A stretch of 64,000 nucleotides of DNA from Lactarius indigo (lineage: Eukaryota > Basidiomycota > Agaricomycetes > Russulales > Russulaceae), in NCBI GenBank assembly GCA_025766275.1, contig JAFKAC010000050.1:372001-436000 (forward strand), given 5' to 3'. Shown piece after piece: positions 1,228-6,830 of the stretch. The notes beneath the pieces are model-generated. The model was not told the DNA's origin. It saw only the letters and a program-made list of their open reading frames with translations, and did no database searches. A program made the translations under genes and the position numbers. Position 1 is the stretch's first letter. Each line of letters opens with the position of its first letter.

Positions 1228-2919
1228 CTAGACGGGTCTCTGATGGTGGTACCTGCGTTTATTAAGAAACTCCTTTGGCGCGTTGGCAACGGTTACGGGG
1301 AGACCAGAGAGCTGGCGCGCTCTGGTGAACCCCCCAACACGTCCTACTGGCTCGTCATCTAAGCAAAGAAAGTGCAGGCCTGGCAACACTTCCGGGACCA
1401 TCTCAGCAGTGACGCCTTTGAGTACATCTACAAAAACCCCTGCTAGCTGAGCAGAAACTCGCAGCGTCTCCACAGTGGTGAATTGACGGAGGAGTTCCAA
1501 CCATTCGCCGTAGTCTATATCGTCTCGCCAACTCGGTTGCATCTGGAACGCACCAATGGAGAGATGGCACACGTTGGAGAGTACAGCGGGAGCTTGGCTG
1601 AGTACCTCGGTTAAGTGCGGAACTTGCCAATCTAACCCTTGACACGAGATGCGAAGGGCGAGATGAGTTCGACGGCTCTCCAATTGTTCAGAATAAAGGT
1701 TGATGTAAACATGGCTACCACGAAAATTTACTTGTGCGTTCTTAAAGCGGGCTGTCTCGAGAACTTGGGTCTGACCGACGAACCTAAACAGTTGAGGCAC
1801 TTGAAAGTCAAGCTGATTGAAGTACGTTATCCTGATGGAAGCGAGGCGAGGCGTGTCGATTTGGGCCAGGAGGTCTTCCAAATACTCGCTGGCACCTCGG
1901 AATTCAAATGAGGTGAGAGCTGGCAAAACAACTCGCGTTAGGGAGGTGGGACGTCTTCTACTACCACTTTGATTGGGACGAGATGTAGATGATTGGAATT
2001 CAATGGAAAGGTCACCGAGTCTGGACAATGCAGCCAGACTCATGACCATCTCCTCTGGTGAAATATACCCAGTGTGGGGTATACGGTGAAGATAGAGAAA
2101 GACGAGGTCGGTGGCAGATAAAAGAAGCGTTGGTAACGTCGGAAAGGGAATGCCTTCTAAATGGATTTCTTGTAAGCACGGGGTAGACACACCCAAGAAT
2201 GTACCAAGAAGGACCGGCACATCCTCTTCTTTCGACGAAAGCCAGAGCTGCGTCAGCATCGGGAACGGCTCCTGCACCACCGTGGCCACCTTTTCCAACA
2301 GCGATCTTGTCACCGGGAGCTTGAGACAGCGAACACGATCAGGGTGCTCAAGTGCAGCGATGATGTTATCTTCGTCGTCAAGAGAAAATTTCTTGCCATT
2401 GTAGTTAGGATAGTTGACATAGTCAATGATGATAGGAAAGGCCGGCCAGCAACCTAGACTCTTCCTGATAGGTGTTCCACACGTGCAGAGAAGAGAGAGA
2501 TCGAGACTGTGAGGTGAAGAAAACACGATCTGTCGCCATCTGTGGCATACGTGGACCAGTATGTGCCATTCCAACACGGGTTGAAAGGGTGACCCGAGAG
2601 GGTTGCGACCTACTTGACAGAAGTCGAATATTTGTAAGAGGACATCGTCTGGGAGGATGTCCATTGTCGTTTCATGTTTATGTTCACGAATCCGGTCTGT
2701 GGTGATGATACTAGTCGACTCTGCACGCGCCACTGGCATATAAGAAATTGAATTTGAGGATTTGGTTCCAAGTTTGGTTCGGACCAATATTTTCCCTAGT
2801 TTTTCGCACAGGCTTTTGACAATCTTTCCCATCTTCTGGGCTTTGTAGGGACCATCTATTTGTGTCGAAGTAGGGCCTGAGGGTGAATAGGGAGAAATAG
2901 TATCCCTTGGCAGCGACAA
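1228..2919 (-). CDS. F-box protein of the basidiomycete F-box/LRR-like type
   Basis: Single-exon frame of 563 codons. Residues about 86-135 form an F-box: it opens MDILPDDVLLQIFDFC and continues with VCHRWRQIVFSSP, the usual basidiomycete pattern of a hydrophobic F-box helix followed by C-x-x-W-R. The remainder is leucine-rich without a clear repeat period, as in the large family of F-box proteins expanded in mushrooms. F-box proteins are substrate adaptors of SCF (Skp1-Cullin-F-box) ubiquitin ligases; the substrate here is unknown. The upstream ATG at 2919 adds 85 residues before the F-box; the ATG at 2664 begins exactly at the F-box and may be the true start. A second, unrelated F-box gene lies at 39558-41396. 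Confidence 0.85.
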   Translation of the reverse strand: MSLPRDTISPYSPSGPTSTQIDGPYKAQKMGKIVKSLCEKLGKILVRTKLGTKSSNSISYMPVARAESTSIITTDRIREHKHETTMDILPDDVLLQIFDFCQVGRNPLGSPFQPVLEWHILVHVCHRWRQIVFSSPHSLDLSLLCTCGTPIRKSLGCWPAFPIIIDYVNYPNYNGKKFSLDDEDNIIAALEHPDRVRCLKLPVTRSLLEKVATVVQEPFPMLTQLWLSSKEEDVPVLLGTFLGVSTPCLQEIHLEGIPFPTLPTLLLSATDLVFLYLHRIPHTGYISPEEMVMSLAALSRLGDLSIEFQSSTSRPNQSGSRRRPTSLTRVVLPALTSFEFRGASEYLEDLLAQIDTPRLASIRITYFNQLDFQVPQLFRFVGQTQVLETARFKNAQVNFRGSHVYINLYSEQLESRRTHLALRISCQGLDWQVPHLTEVLSQAPAVLSNVCHLSIGAFQMQPSWRDDIDYGEWLELLRQFTTVETLRVSAQLAGVFVDVLKGVTAEMVPEVLPGLHFLCLDDEPVGRVGGFTRARQLSGLPVTVANAPKEFLNKRRYHHQRPV

Positions 2920-3297
2920 TAGACGGTAGGTTGTCTTAGAAGACGGCTGATTGGATATTTTACCAGCGAGTACACAGAAAATTAGTTTAGTAATACAGAA
3001 AATGACGGCCTAGAGCGTACCAGTAAGAGTTCTTTCATAGAAACAGTAAGGGTCAAGCTGAGTGGACGAAATGTCAGCTTTATGCTATGATGTACCAAAG
3101 GTCGTCACAGTACAAGTTCAACGTTCACTGGCAGCGTTCAACGTTCAACAATCATCGATCAGCGCCGGTGGTCACGCGCTTTCTCTCCCCAAGAGACCAA
3201 GGTGACGAGTGTACCCCACATACTAGACTCAACTCATACCGCATACCTTTGCTAACCTACGTTCCGTCCGTTCGACCTTCAAATCAGAGGTCTCCAA

Positions 3298-4799
3298 ATG
3301 GTATTGGGGTTTTTGGCCTCCTGGAAGGAACGGCGGGAGGAATGGCGGGTGAAGAAACGGGCAAAAACGCGCTCTGATGAAATTGACCGCCAGATCGAGA
3401 ACGAGTCCATAGCCTTCAAGAGAACATACGATGTCTTGTTGATGGGTTCGTACTCTTTGTATTACATACTAGTGTTAGTATCTCTTGGACTGATTATTTC
3501 CTTGCAAAAGGACTTAGCGACCTCGAGACGTCCGCCATAGGCAGGCAAATGAAGATCATATACCAGGATGGCTACTCTCGTGAAGAACTCCTCAATTTTC
3601 GTCCATCCATTTGGAGATATCTCCTTGAGACTTCCCGTCGTATTGTACAGGATCTACGAGACTTAGGCCTGGAGCCCGCGACTCATGCAAACAAAGTGCG
3701 TATTTCTTACACCGCTTTTTTTTTTTGCGCCGCACGTTATAATCCACTTACAGGCTAACTGCGAGCGCATTTTGAATCACCCAACGGATATTGACCATCC
3801 TGAGTTCTTTTTCCGGCCCGAGTTCGCTGATGCGGTACAGGAACTGTGGGCAGACGACATCGTTCCTGTGTTGCTCGGCAGTCCAACATACTTTCCTTTG
3901 GCTGATAACGTGGCTTAGTGAGTCTTCTTATCTACTCCCGGCTGCTATCGAGCCGCGCTTTATCACATCTCGCGATCAGAGCAGCAACTGGCTGGTCTTC
4001 ATGTGTTATACTGAATGTTGTGTTGATGACCCTCCCATATAGCTTCTTTCCGGATGCACATCGAATGACCTCAAGGGAGTATATCCCGTCGGACAATGAC
4101 ATACTTCGTGCACCCATGGCGTCTCGTGTGAAAGTTATAGAGACCTATTTCCCCATGGGTCAACTGTCGATTCGCTTATGCCACGTTATTGGTCAAAGGA
4201 GCATGCGGACTAGGTGGACTCATATCTTCGAGAGCACCACTTCCATCATATTTTGCGCTTCTCTCCTAGATTATGATCGTTGGGACGAGGACGGAGAGGG
4301 ACGTCCTTCCTTCCCCTCTCCATTGACGTACATGACAGTGATTGCAGGCACTAATATCAAGATCTCTTGCCCTTTTTGAATCAGTCGTCAATTCACGGTG
4401 GTTCTTGCGGACGTCCATTATACTATTTTTGACCGGAATCAAAGAGTTCAAAGACAAACTATACAAGGTACGCTACGACTTGATCTATGCCCTTCTATTG
4501 TCTAGGTTTATTCATGTCATCAGGTTCCCCTGGAAAACTATTTTCCGGAGTATACAGGAGGTGCGGATACTAGCAAGGGGGCCAAGTACATTCTCTGGCG
4601 ATTTATGCAGGCCAATCGTGCACGGTTAAATGTGTACCCTCAGTGAAGACATGTCTCCCTTACCTACGATAGTCGTGGCTGACCTGCTAGCGATTACAGT
4701 GTCACTGATGTCTTTGACACGTCTAACATTCGGCTGGTCTTCATCGCTGTAAAGGAAACGTTCCTTCAGAACGCGCTAAGGGAGAATGGTATCCTTTGA
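3298..4799 (+). CDS. Heterotrimeric G-protein alpha-like protein with altered nucleotide-binding motifs
   Basis: About seven exons splice to a G-alpha-length protein (about 370 aa): 3298-3449, 3518-3695, 3754-3917, 4043 to about 4327, 4348-4467, 4524-4642, 4700-4799. The junction between exons 4 and 5 is not resolved. Clear G-alpha landmarks are [78 protein letters not shown] and the C-terminal receptor-contact end ALRENGIL. All guanine-nucleotide motifs are altered: the P-loop GxGESGKS reads [10 protein letters not shown], the switch I arginine/threonine segment reads [15 protein letters not shown] reads HVIGQ, NKxD reads TGIK, and TCAT reads HVTD. The frame stays open to a proper stop, so this looks like a pseudo-GTPase rather than plain debris, but a young pseudogene cannot be excluded. 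Confidence 0.75.
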
Positions 4800-5228
4800 C
4801 AGACCATCTGTTCTGTGTTCCCTCTGAATTCGCTCGTCAAACCGAACAAAAACGGCCGAACTCCGGTGCTCTACTTATTCTGTTGATGGTGTAAGGATCA
4901 CGTCCGCAGTGGGCCTACTCGATAGACTAACTATATTATTGCTACAGTAAGCTCGTTATGTACCCTATGGTTTTACGAAGAGGGACGTGCCTTTACTTTT
5001 GCGTGAATGATTTCTGTTTGCGTCCACGTCGGTGTCTCTATCTCTATCGTGCTTCCTATCCTCGTTTCTCTCGTCCAAACTTCCACTCGGGTACCACGAC
5101 TGTTACAACCGTCAAACGGGATGTTTGAACATATAGTTGCCTTTGGATGCCAGTCCGGATGGGACGAGATGCGGCGGAGATGTGTTCTATAGACTTGATG
5201 AGGAGATTTACTGTAAAGCTCCACATCC
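4800..5228. other. Intergenic, no gene recognised
   Basis: This is the spacer between the G-alpha-like gene and the SMC1 remnant. Small open frames exist on both strands near 4973-5239, but none shows a recognisable motif or splice context. It could contain further decayed SMC1 sequence that is no longer readable. Confidence 0.4.
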
Positions 5229-6830
5229 GTGGTAGACATCGCCGAAGGTGAAGTCTATGGAGATTCCTGCCGCGGGATGGGCGTGGCGAGCATCCGAGAC
5301 TACGAAGCGCGCCGACTCGAACTTGCGCAGGAAGAAACTGAGGCGCAATTGCGTTTCGAGATGCGAATCGCCTGCCTGACCCATTTGTGTGCTTTCAGCC
5401 CCCCGCCCAAAAGGCTCTCGTTGAGATTGTCACAACAGAAGTGGTAAGCCGCGTGAACCTCGAAAGGAGGAAGAATGAGAAGCAAGAAGAGCTCCTGACG
5501 ATGCAAGAAGGGATCGGGGAGCTTGAGGAAGAAATGTCGCGGCTCAAGGGGAACCCAGACAAGAAGTCGCAGGTGCCGCCTCAAAGGGACCAACCAAGCT
5601 GCCATTGGTCTCAAGAAGAACGTCCCAATGGAGGAGGTCCATCGTCCTTGTTATATCGATGCATATCGATCGAAAAATACATTGCTCTCCGACAGAATAT
5701 ACGCGATGAGGTCGCCATGGACGTTGACGGGAGGGTGATACAGCAAGTGACTCAACACAGCGCATTGCTGTAAGCGAGCTCCCGATTATGGAATCGAGGT
5801 GAACTTTGAGGTCCTCAGCGGGGAGGAGCGAGAAGTAAGCGCTTTAAAACCGGATTATTTCTAGAAATGACTCTGGGGAAACGCTCGCCGAGTTCGACGC
5901 GTCCATAACGAAACTTAACGCCGAGATCGAGCGGATGACACCAAACATGAAGGCCATGGACCGGCATGTGTCATCTTGCCTTCCCGACACTCAGGGCTGA
6001 TGACAGCACTCTTCCCAGTCTCGATGACGTCGAGATCAAGCTAGCCGACACCGAAAAGGAGGCTGATAAAGCCCGGAGAGACTCTAAGAATGCGAGAGAC
6101 ACATCCAACGACGTGAAACAGAGGCGGTACGGGACTCCATCCGTTGTCATCACGGCCCCATGATGAGACCAATCTTTCCCTCAGCATTGAACTGTTCAAC
6201 AAAGCATACAACTACATATCAGAACGTATTGACGAGGTCCACAAGGATTTGACGAAGGGCAAAGCAGCGCCGATGGGTGGTGTGGCTTACCTCAGCCTAG
6301 AAGACAACGAAGTACGGGCGGCAAATTTGAATGTCAAAAGCAGCGCCACACATCTCACTTTTTTTGTTTTTGTTTTTGTTTTTGTTTTTGTTTTTTCGCT
6401 GTCCCCCGGAACGTTCCAGGAACCATGTGCGGGCGGTATGGAATATTTCAATGAAGCGTTCGAGATATGGAGCAGCTGTCCGGCGGCGAAAAGACGGTCG
6501 CGGCGCTAGCCCTTCTATTCGCTACACACCGGTGCGCGTGGCGCTCTTCGTCGGTGTTTAATTACGGGCCTCCCATAGCGGGTGCTGACTTCATGCCATG
6601 TCAGTCACTAGCCCAGCCCAGTTCTTCGTACTCGACGAGGTCGACACGGCGTAGCCGGGTGCAGACGTCGGACACTTTGCAGTTCATCGTGATCAGCCTC
6701 TCTAAGGGGCTCGCTGTACGAGTGCGAGTGTGGGAACTCCCTGGTTGGGGTCCATCGGGACCAGGATCTGAACAGCTCTCACATACTCCGTACCCTTGGA
6801 CGTAAGCGCTTTTCGCTTTCGCTCCTCCGG
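5229..6830 (+). pseudogene. Cohesin SMC1 C-terminal half, degenerate
   Basis: Scattered frames read as the C-terminal half of the cohesin ATPase SMC1, in the right order. At about 5240-5370 is the coiled coil (RDYEARRLELAQEETEAQ). At 5980-6120 is DDVEIKLADTEKEADKARRD. At 6190-6310 is NKAYNYISERIDEVHKDLTK with GKAAPMGGVAYLSLED. At 6467-6520 is the ABC signature helix MEQLSGGEKTVAALALLFA. At 6620-6650 is Walker B FFVLDEVDTA, followed at once by an in-frame stop. At 6680-6800 is QFIVISL, then the GNSLVGVHRDQD segment in another frame. Several frameshifts separate these blocks, and the N-terminal ATPase half is absent. An intron-like segment with a TTTTTG repeat remains at about 6315-6418. Not functional; an intact SMC1 must exist elsewhere because cohesin is essential. 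Confidence 0.85.
6357..6397 (+). repeat. TTTTTG microsatellite
   Basis: About six tandem TTTTTG units lie in the intron-like segment of the SMC1 remnant, just upstream of a candidate 3' splice site ending CCAG at about 6420. Confidence 0.9.

Follow-up and report, generated by a model that had tools for sequence, protein, structure and literature searches.

The G-alpha-like gene at positions 3298-4799 of the window (the whole 64,000-nucleotide stretch that was analysed, positions 372001-436000 of Lactarius indigo contig C238) has lost the motifs of guanine nucleotide binding, and the same losses recur in a single clade of proteins from Lactarius, Lactifluus and Russula. G-alpha subunits are the textbook GTP switch. 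On balance we think it somewhat probable that this gene encodes a pseudo-GTPase G-alpha whose nucleotide motifs were lost, most simply, once, whose fold would be held nucleotide-free, and which may serve as a GTP-independent partner or decoy tuning canonical G-alpha. The observation made in the original prediction for this one gene holds and is larger than was then seen, extending to an allele, two tandem paralogues, a fourth locus and a wider family. The family and its P1-type members are better objects of study than the window copy itself.

Structure of the window gene

Lactarius belongs to the Russulaceae (Russulales), and the L. indigo assembly (90.3 Mb, 291 contigs) appears to comprise two haplotypes. 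The window gene corresponds to the NCBI protein model P0003 (L. indigo, 370 aa). Spliced alignment and comparison with paralogues place its start ATG at 3298 and its stop TGA at 4797-4799, with seven exons between them (Table 1), so that the coordinates originally given for a seven-exon gene with a G-alpha-length product and a normal stop were exact.

Table 1. Parts of the G-alpha-like gene, in window positions
Feature	Position	Strand	Content	Basis
Exon 1	3298..3445	+	N-terminal helix, without MGxC lipidation signal; VLLMG at end, the P-loop glycine	spliced alignment, paralogue comparison; donor GTTCGT at 3446
Exon 2	3511..3695	+	replaced P-loop (for GSGESGKSTI), alpha-1, start of helical domain	spliced alignment, paralogues
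Exon 3	3754..3917	+	helical domain	spliced alignment, paralogues
Exon 4	4043..4302, may reach 4327	+	replaced switch I, G3 as HVIGQ	spliced alignment, paralogues, NCBI model
Intron 4 zone, uncertain	4303..4384	+	34-nt intron 4328-4361 or 82-nt intron 4303-4384	spliced alignment, paralogues, NCBI model
Exon 5	4385..4467 (start at 4362 if intron 4 is 34 nt)	+	replaced G4, TGIK for NKID	spliced alignment, paralogues, NCBI model
Exon 6	4524..4642	+		spliced alignment, paralogues
Exon 7	4700..4799	+	replaced G5 VTDVF, helix alpha-5, C-terminal tail ALRENGIL, stop 4797-4799	spliced alignment, paralogues

Intron 1, at 3446-3510, has a donor/acceptor pair homologous to that of the paralogues, and with this intron each residue of the P-loop site lines up with one of GSGESGKSTI. 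In P0003, the NCBI model, the site instead reads GSYSFDLETSAI, which fits an acceptor at 3517. None of the three readings (the paralogue-type intron 1, P0003 and the original prediction) restores a P-loop. Because the paralogues P1 and P2 carry the collinear sequences GLNDPDTSAI and GLNDSDMSAI, the changes are residue-by-residue replacements rather than a splice artefact. Further, GK[ST] is absent from all plus-strand frames of window positions 3101-5000, as is NKxD, the sole NKxD-like match being TKRD at 4975, past the stop. We therefore rejected alternative splicing that would restore the P-loop or NKxD, an outcome that would have spoken against the original prediction.

The substitutions named in that prediction are present in the sequence, although its description of all motifs as altered was slightly too strong, as the G3 site keeps the GQ of DVGGQ. 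Switch II/alpha-2 shows several changes (SERKKWIH to SMRTRWTH). The C-terminal tail is kept as described, and two predicted structures retain the G-alpha fold with its Ras-like and helical domains. Matches to the Pfam G-alpha family PF00503 reach 250.4 bits for P0003 and 286.7 bits for P0004, against a cut-off of 48.8.

Intron 4 is the weak point of the gene, which has AT where the P1 model uses the acceptor AG. The 34-nt option fits the NCBI protein and is shorter than the P1 and P2 introns as placed (53-124 nt), and the 82-nt option deletes part of helix alpha-3. Intron 4 is badly annotated across the degenerate family.

Several minor observations concern gene models and the neighbourhood. 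The NCBI model of P2, P0002, apparently skips only 13 nt at intron 4, where our P2 model has a 58-nt intron, and it begins MLDSTLTLRPL, an extension found in several other Lactarius models; at P2 itself (L010, C238:338512-339982), the ATG start common to the window gene and P1 is ACG in both haplotypes. P0015 has extra residues at the intron-4 position that resemble a retained in-frame intron. Adjoining the gene is a 593-codon open frame on the minus strand (window 1228-3009) that weakly resembles an F-box (E 0.00076; its 19.6 bits do not reach the Pfam cut-off of 24.3). On the plus strand, window 6455-6802 encodes part of an SMC-like protein, with an SMC_N match at E 9.3e-7 and 28.9 bits that falls short of the cut-off of 40; judged by eye, frames that resemble coiled coils and start near 5236 may be remains of the same relic.

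A degenerate family in the Russulaceae

An allele of the window gene with 98% identity and the same motif losses is carried by the other haplotype, on C240. The tandem paralogues P1 and P2 (79% and 76% DNA identity to the window gene) lie 35-41 kb upstream on C238, each with an allele on C240. At a fourth locus, on C179 with a counterpart on C233, P-loop, G3 and G4 are gone too (GCNDYDVSI, ITGRP and FTGFNEF) and the QAT of G5 is retained. Because the same loss is found in the C240 allele and at three further loci, we rejected assembly error as its source.

Among 22 L. indigo loci fetched and scanned in the three gene-strand frames, only four lack all of the G1, G3 and G4 strings inside the gene: L009, L010, L020 and L021, the degenerate loci of P1/P2/window type and C179 type. 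One or two of these strings are absent at L017, L018, L024, L028, L029 and L030. Re-splicing of six divergent loci (L017, L018, L025, L026, L028 and L030) yielded ESGKS in five of the six, the L017 model starting downstream of the P-loop, and NKCD, NKTD or NKSD in all six; L024 (C35) reads GAGESGKS. The canonical loci L012-L016 have GSGESGKS, DVGGQ and NKID intact, and L031, with GLDAAGKT, resembles an Arf-type GTPase rather than a G-alpha. One of the divergent G-alphas, L018 (G000:C248:1992084-1993235), has DVGSS at G3 in its spliced model, with P-loop and NKCD present. Altered P-loops in the tandem genes on C113 (GLLSSGKST, GGGDHHIST) were rejected as aligner artefacts produced when introns were limited to 160 nt, the true sequence being GSGESGKS, as in P0041. 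A link between the window gene and a pheromone-receptor locus was likewise rejected, since all 11 STE3 matches lie on C113 and none on C238 or C240.

Three protein searches, from which we took the best 120 of 993, the best 120 of 1485 and the best 120 of 1044 matches, gave 153 distinct proteins and, with L. indigo P1, 154 G-alpha sequences. Among these listed matches, 42 of the 154 have lost G1, G3 and G4 wherever the site is covered: G1 is covered in 39, G3 in 42 and G4 in 40, and each is changed at every one (P0141, P0143 and P0144 start after the P-loop site; P0135 and P0147 do not cover G4). In the 111 sequences left when P0079 is set aside too, G3 is present in 110 and G4 in 111. P0079 was rejected as a G1-less member because it merely has an insertion before SGESGKST, which reduced the sequences without GxxxxGK[ST] from 43 to 42. 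The degenerate members comprise 18 from Lactarius (9 species, P1 included), 2 from Lactifluus subvellereus, 12 from Russula (6 species) and 10 from further contigs. Relatives with the same lost motifs, which the original prediction had called for, thus come from three genera and 16 named species; no degenerate member among the best 120 matches per search is named outside the Russulaceae.

In a tree of 39 of the 42 degenerate and 36 canonical sequences, built after removing the columns of the P-loop, switch I, G3, G4, G5 and N-terminus and leaving out the fragments P0143, P0144 and P0147, the degenerate members form a single clade (100/100) inside the Russulaceae. A single clade was also recovered with 28 degenerate members in two trees, one of which used all columns. 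The degenerate label changes twice on a quick tree in which P0079 counts as degenerate, and once when P0079 is relabelled and the three fragments are dropped. Within the clade, a Russula and Lactifluus side of 18 rows (100/98) stands opposite a Lactarius side of 21 rows (96/69). Support is weak (82/69) for the window protein as the first branch among 17 Lactarius-type members. Because the motif loss is common to 42 of 154 sequences, 39 of which have been placed and fall in one clade, its pattern, as read from the alignments, is not due to chance. Together, these proteins apparently constitute a pseudo-GTPase G-alpha family with one origin.

The nearest canonical row, weakly, is P0055 from Gloeopeniophorella (86/81 in the 39-member tree, 81/82 in the 28-member tree). 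We rejected it as a stable sister of the degenerate clade because it groups with canonical sequences in the all-column tree. This protein, from G. convolvens, has canonical motifs with small oddities (GSDESGKS, DVGGQWSERKKW) on a long branch, and might be an intermediate.

In the listed matches from open-licence papers, neither fungal G-alphas of the nucleotide-dead kind nor this Russulaceae family were reported, which is weak evidence of absence; within its main text, a Lactarius-pine transcriptome paper (PMC8417538) does not contain the term 'g-alpha'.

Lost residues, retained residues and selection

We scored 28 degenerate sequences at 164 positions whose conservation across 104 canonical sequences is 95% or more, assigning positions to classes by lists of presumed contact residues rather than by computation from coordinates. 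At the nucleotide-contact positions (n=19) the canonical residue is kept in 28% on average, with 11 of the 19 kept in at most 20%; at the remaining positions (n=115) it is kept in 71%, with 19 of the 115 kept in at most 20% (p=8e-6 against the nucleotide sites). Loss is thus concentrated at the positions classed as nucleotide-contacting. Gly43, Gly46, Lys47, Arg181, Asp203 and Lys273 (P0025 numbering) are kept in 0 of the 27 or 28 members scored per site, the switch I Arg among them in 0 of 27.

Some remnants of the motifs persist: GQ of G3 in many members, QAT of G5 at the C179 locus and Asp of G4 in a quarter. That these proteins still bind guanine nucleotide through a non-canonical pocket is a reading we consider very improbable. 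It could draw on the frequent retention of three residues, Gly at the P-loop start (82%), Asp in the helical domain (85%) and Gln in G3 (79%), but no scored member keeps the P-loop Lys, the Gly preceding it, the switch I Arg, the G3 Asp or the G4 Lys. Moreover, acidic residues often stand at the would-be phosphate position, and of the 28 members tried, 26 could be scored, 21 of which, across genera, have a [DE]x[DE] pattern within the replaced P-loop, although its column varies. There is strong reason to infer that the family is one of degenerate G-alphas without nucleotide binding.

Partner surfaces present a different picture. Canonical residues are kept in 77% at switch II/alpha-2 (11 sites), 88% in the N-helix (4 sites) and 78% in alpha-5 (14 sites), yet in the 28 degenerate sequences retention at these supposed G-beta-gamma and receptor surfaces is not significantly higher than at the rest positions (p 0.79, 0.18 and 0.33). 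These data point to lost nucleotide binding, and not to special protection of the G-beta-gamma and alpha-5 surfaces. The N-terminus has also changed: in place of MGxC, 24 of 28 members have, somewhere in their first 60 residues, a Trp with K, R, E, N or Q directly after it. These 24 span genera and include P0014, whose N-terminus is unrelated. A Cys occurs among the first six residues in 0 of 28 and an MG start in 2 of 28, gene starts being predictions. With the lipidation signal lost, recruitment to the membrane would need another route.

That surface positions are retained no better than others, and that the lipidation signal has given way to a different start containing Trp and basic residues, would also suit a functional adaptor on the G-alpha fold, a scaffold or effector-binding protein that has given up contact with G-beta-gamma and receptors. 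We regard this as rather unlikely, because S-ID of the N-helix, W-I-H-F-E of switch II/alpha-2 and much of alpha-5 are kept in most of the 28 members, across genera.

Selection was estimated on the L. indigo copies only, using GY94-type codon models in our own implementation. The degenerate branches gave omega 0.40, against 0.10 for the canonical C259 branch. A value of 1 for the degenerate branches was rejected with 336 codons (2dlnL 74), a set in which a handful of N-terminal codons of canonical C259 were mis-spliced, and with 289 codons (2dlnL 65), from which these were removed along with the P-loop and everything upstream, leading to the same conclusion. The degenerate copies in L. indigo are under purifying selection. 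The window gene, P1 and P2 alone gave omega 0.47 (2dlnL 31.5 against omega=1). On the C179 branch, 2dlnL against omega=1 was 4.3 with 336 codons and 2.8 with 289, where 1 was not rejected; for internal branches it was 2.7 and 3.0, again with 1 not rejected in the 289-codon set. Taken alone, both the C179 and the internal branches give a weak rejection or none. Between alleles, omega was 0.16 for P1 (3 nonsynonymous and 8 synonymous codons; 1 rejected), 0.46 for P2 (6 and 4), 0.58 for the window gene (12 and 9) and 0.81 for C179/C233 (19 and 9), with 1 not rejected in the last three. Constraint on the degenerate copies is real yet relaxed, and uneven among them.

It is very improbable, in our estimate, that the whole clade consists of pseudogenes called as genes by annotation pipelines. 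Elevated omega would fit such a history, as would odd models such as P0001 and P0008 with their repeated P-loop segments, P0010 without switch I, and P0002 with its short skip at intron 4. But omega=1 is rejected in the L. indigo members, and a single clade spans three genera with frames that are mostly full-length. A third argument comes from three short contigs, of 1321 bp (P0012, 360 aa), 1363 bp (P0136, 376 aa) and 1156 bp (P0137, 333 aa). They leave too little room for a gene with introns like those of L. indigo, where six introns total about 400 nt, which suggests that they are spliced transcripts. They probably are, the alternative being intron-poorer gene copies; the window gene is not among them. 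In the models of P0001 (L. deliciosus) and P0008 (L. sanguifluus), the repeated stretch includes the N-terminal and the replaced P-loop segment, and may reflect tandem exon duplications or fused gene predictions.

For the window copy taken singly, the case is shaky: the P1-type splice acceptor is lost, and allelic omega is not different from 1. It is possible, if in our judgement somewhat improbable, that this copy is a decaying member of the family, an incipient pseudogene, and that P1, P2 and relatives are the working copies. Besides the lost acceptor, the contrast between its alleles and those of P1 speaks for decay, as does its solitary branch, for which no clear one-to-one relative in other Lactarius appears among the matches listed. 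Against decay, the frame is open on both haplotypes, the intron-4 question aside, and omega on the window branch lies below 1 in every set, as the original prediction had anticipated: 0.54 in the trio (2dlnL 7.8, p 0.005) and, in the five-taxon sets, 0.46 (2dlnL 6.3, p 0.012) and 0.36 (2dlnL 7.5, p 0.006). In a rough neutral simulation, moreover, a frame stayed free of stops in 1.6% of cases after 160 substitutions and in 4-17% after 60-120. The argument that random decay should have struck splice sites and frame alike holds only in part, given the lost P1-type acceptor and the allelic omega that cannot be told from 1. The pseudo-GTPase part of the prediction is well supported by the recurrence of the losses in 16 species, omega below 1, the predicted G-alpha fold and the lack of any frame with a P-loop or NKxD.

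Proposed role and known counterparts

A history of the pseudo-GTPase reading can be outlined as follows. The ancestor would have been a paralogue of the canonical Russulaceae G-alpha of the P0025 type, whose relatives in other mushrooms are labelled GPA3-like. The P-loop, switch I Arg, G3 Asp and G4 Lys would, most simply, have been lost once, before the family's Lactarius members parted from its Russula and Lactifluus members as judged by the tree, and the protein would afterwards have been retained as a moderately constrained family. Most likely neither GTP nor GDP would be bound. Retained surfaces may still be in use, the N-terminal helix and switch II/alpha-2 for G-beta-gamma and the alpha-5 tail for receptors, in which case the protein could act as a GTP-independent partner, or as a competitor (decoy), that tunes canonical G-alpha.

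Compared with the canonical fungal G-alpha (GPA3-like; L. indigo P0025), the family agrees in PF00503 membership, in fold and length and in a large part of the alpha-5 tail, whereas it lacks the P-loop, switch I Arg, G3 Asp, G4 Lys and MGxC start and has an omega about fourfold higher. By Pfam match and predicted fold its members would be classed as G-alphas by descent, without the G1, switch I Arg, G3, G4 and MGxC features of a working GTPase. The family also resembles pseudoGTPases in combining a GTPase fold, here predicted, with lost nucleotide motifs and conservation over evolution.

We favour a GTP-independent partner or decoy because of two precedents, the plant XLGs and G-alpha(G42R). 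XLGs are G-alpha-derived proteins with degenerate nucleotide motifs that are reported to bind G-beta-gamma independently of nucleotide and to act without it (PMC8584482). The fungal family resembles them in G-alpha descent and degenerate motifs. XLGs have additional regions that contain zinc-finger-like cysteines and localisation signals. By contrast, the fungal proteins have roughly ordinary G-alpha length, the 370 aa of P0003 leaving no room for an XLG-type Cys-rich region, and they arose separately, as the tree nests them among the G-alphas of Russulaceae. The P-loop mutant G-alpha(G42R) is reported to bind G-beta-gamma in both nucleotide states tested, and the change favours G-beta-gamma and GoLoco partners (PMC3285607). 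It is a point mutant made in the laboratory in which GTP binding and hydrolysis persist, whereas in the Russulaceae several motifs have been replaced in nature; by motif alignment, the equivalent of G42 is position 43 (P0025 numbering), where Gly is kept in 0 of 28 members. Degenerate septins and the p190RhoGAP domains are reported to keep the GTPase fold after nucleotide motifs were changed or lost (PMC10731463, PMC5593906), and they belong to GTPase families other than the heterotrimeric G-alphas.

The Lactarius, Lactifluus and Russula part of the Russulaceae is ectomycorrhizal. With confidence a little short of even, we propose that the Russulaceae evolved, a single time, a class of G-alpha that signals or blocks with no guanine nucleotide at all, near the base of this ectomycorrhizal part, an independent counterpart of XLG at normal length, with four loci per haplotype in L. 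indigo. A fungal clade that has lost the nucleotide motifs and kept the protein would make the GTP need of G-protein function testable outside plants, and would offer structural work a natural candidate for a nucleotide-free G-alpha and the study of major ectomycorrhizal mushrooms a candidate regulator. Databases label the degenerate members as plain G-protein alpha subunits, so that G-alpha counts in Russulaceae genomes are misleading.

Competition by degenerate G-alphas for G-beta-gamma or receptors is speculative and argued by analogy. The two-haplotype assembly of L. indigo contains three G-gamma matches, from which it would follow that several G-alphas could compete for few G-beta-gammas.
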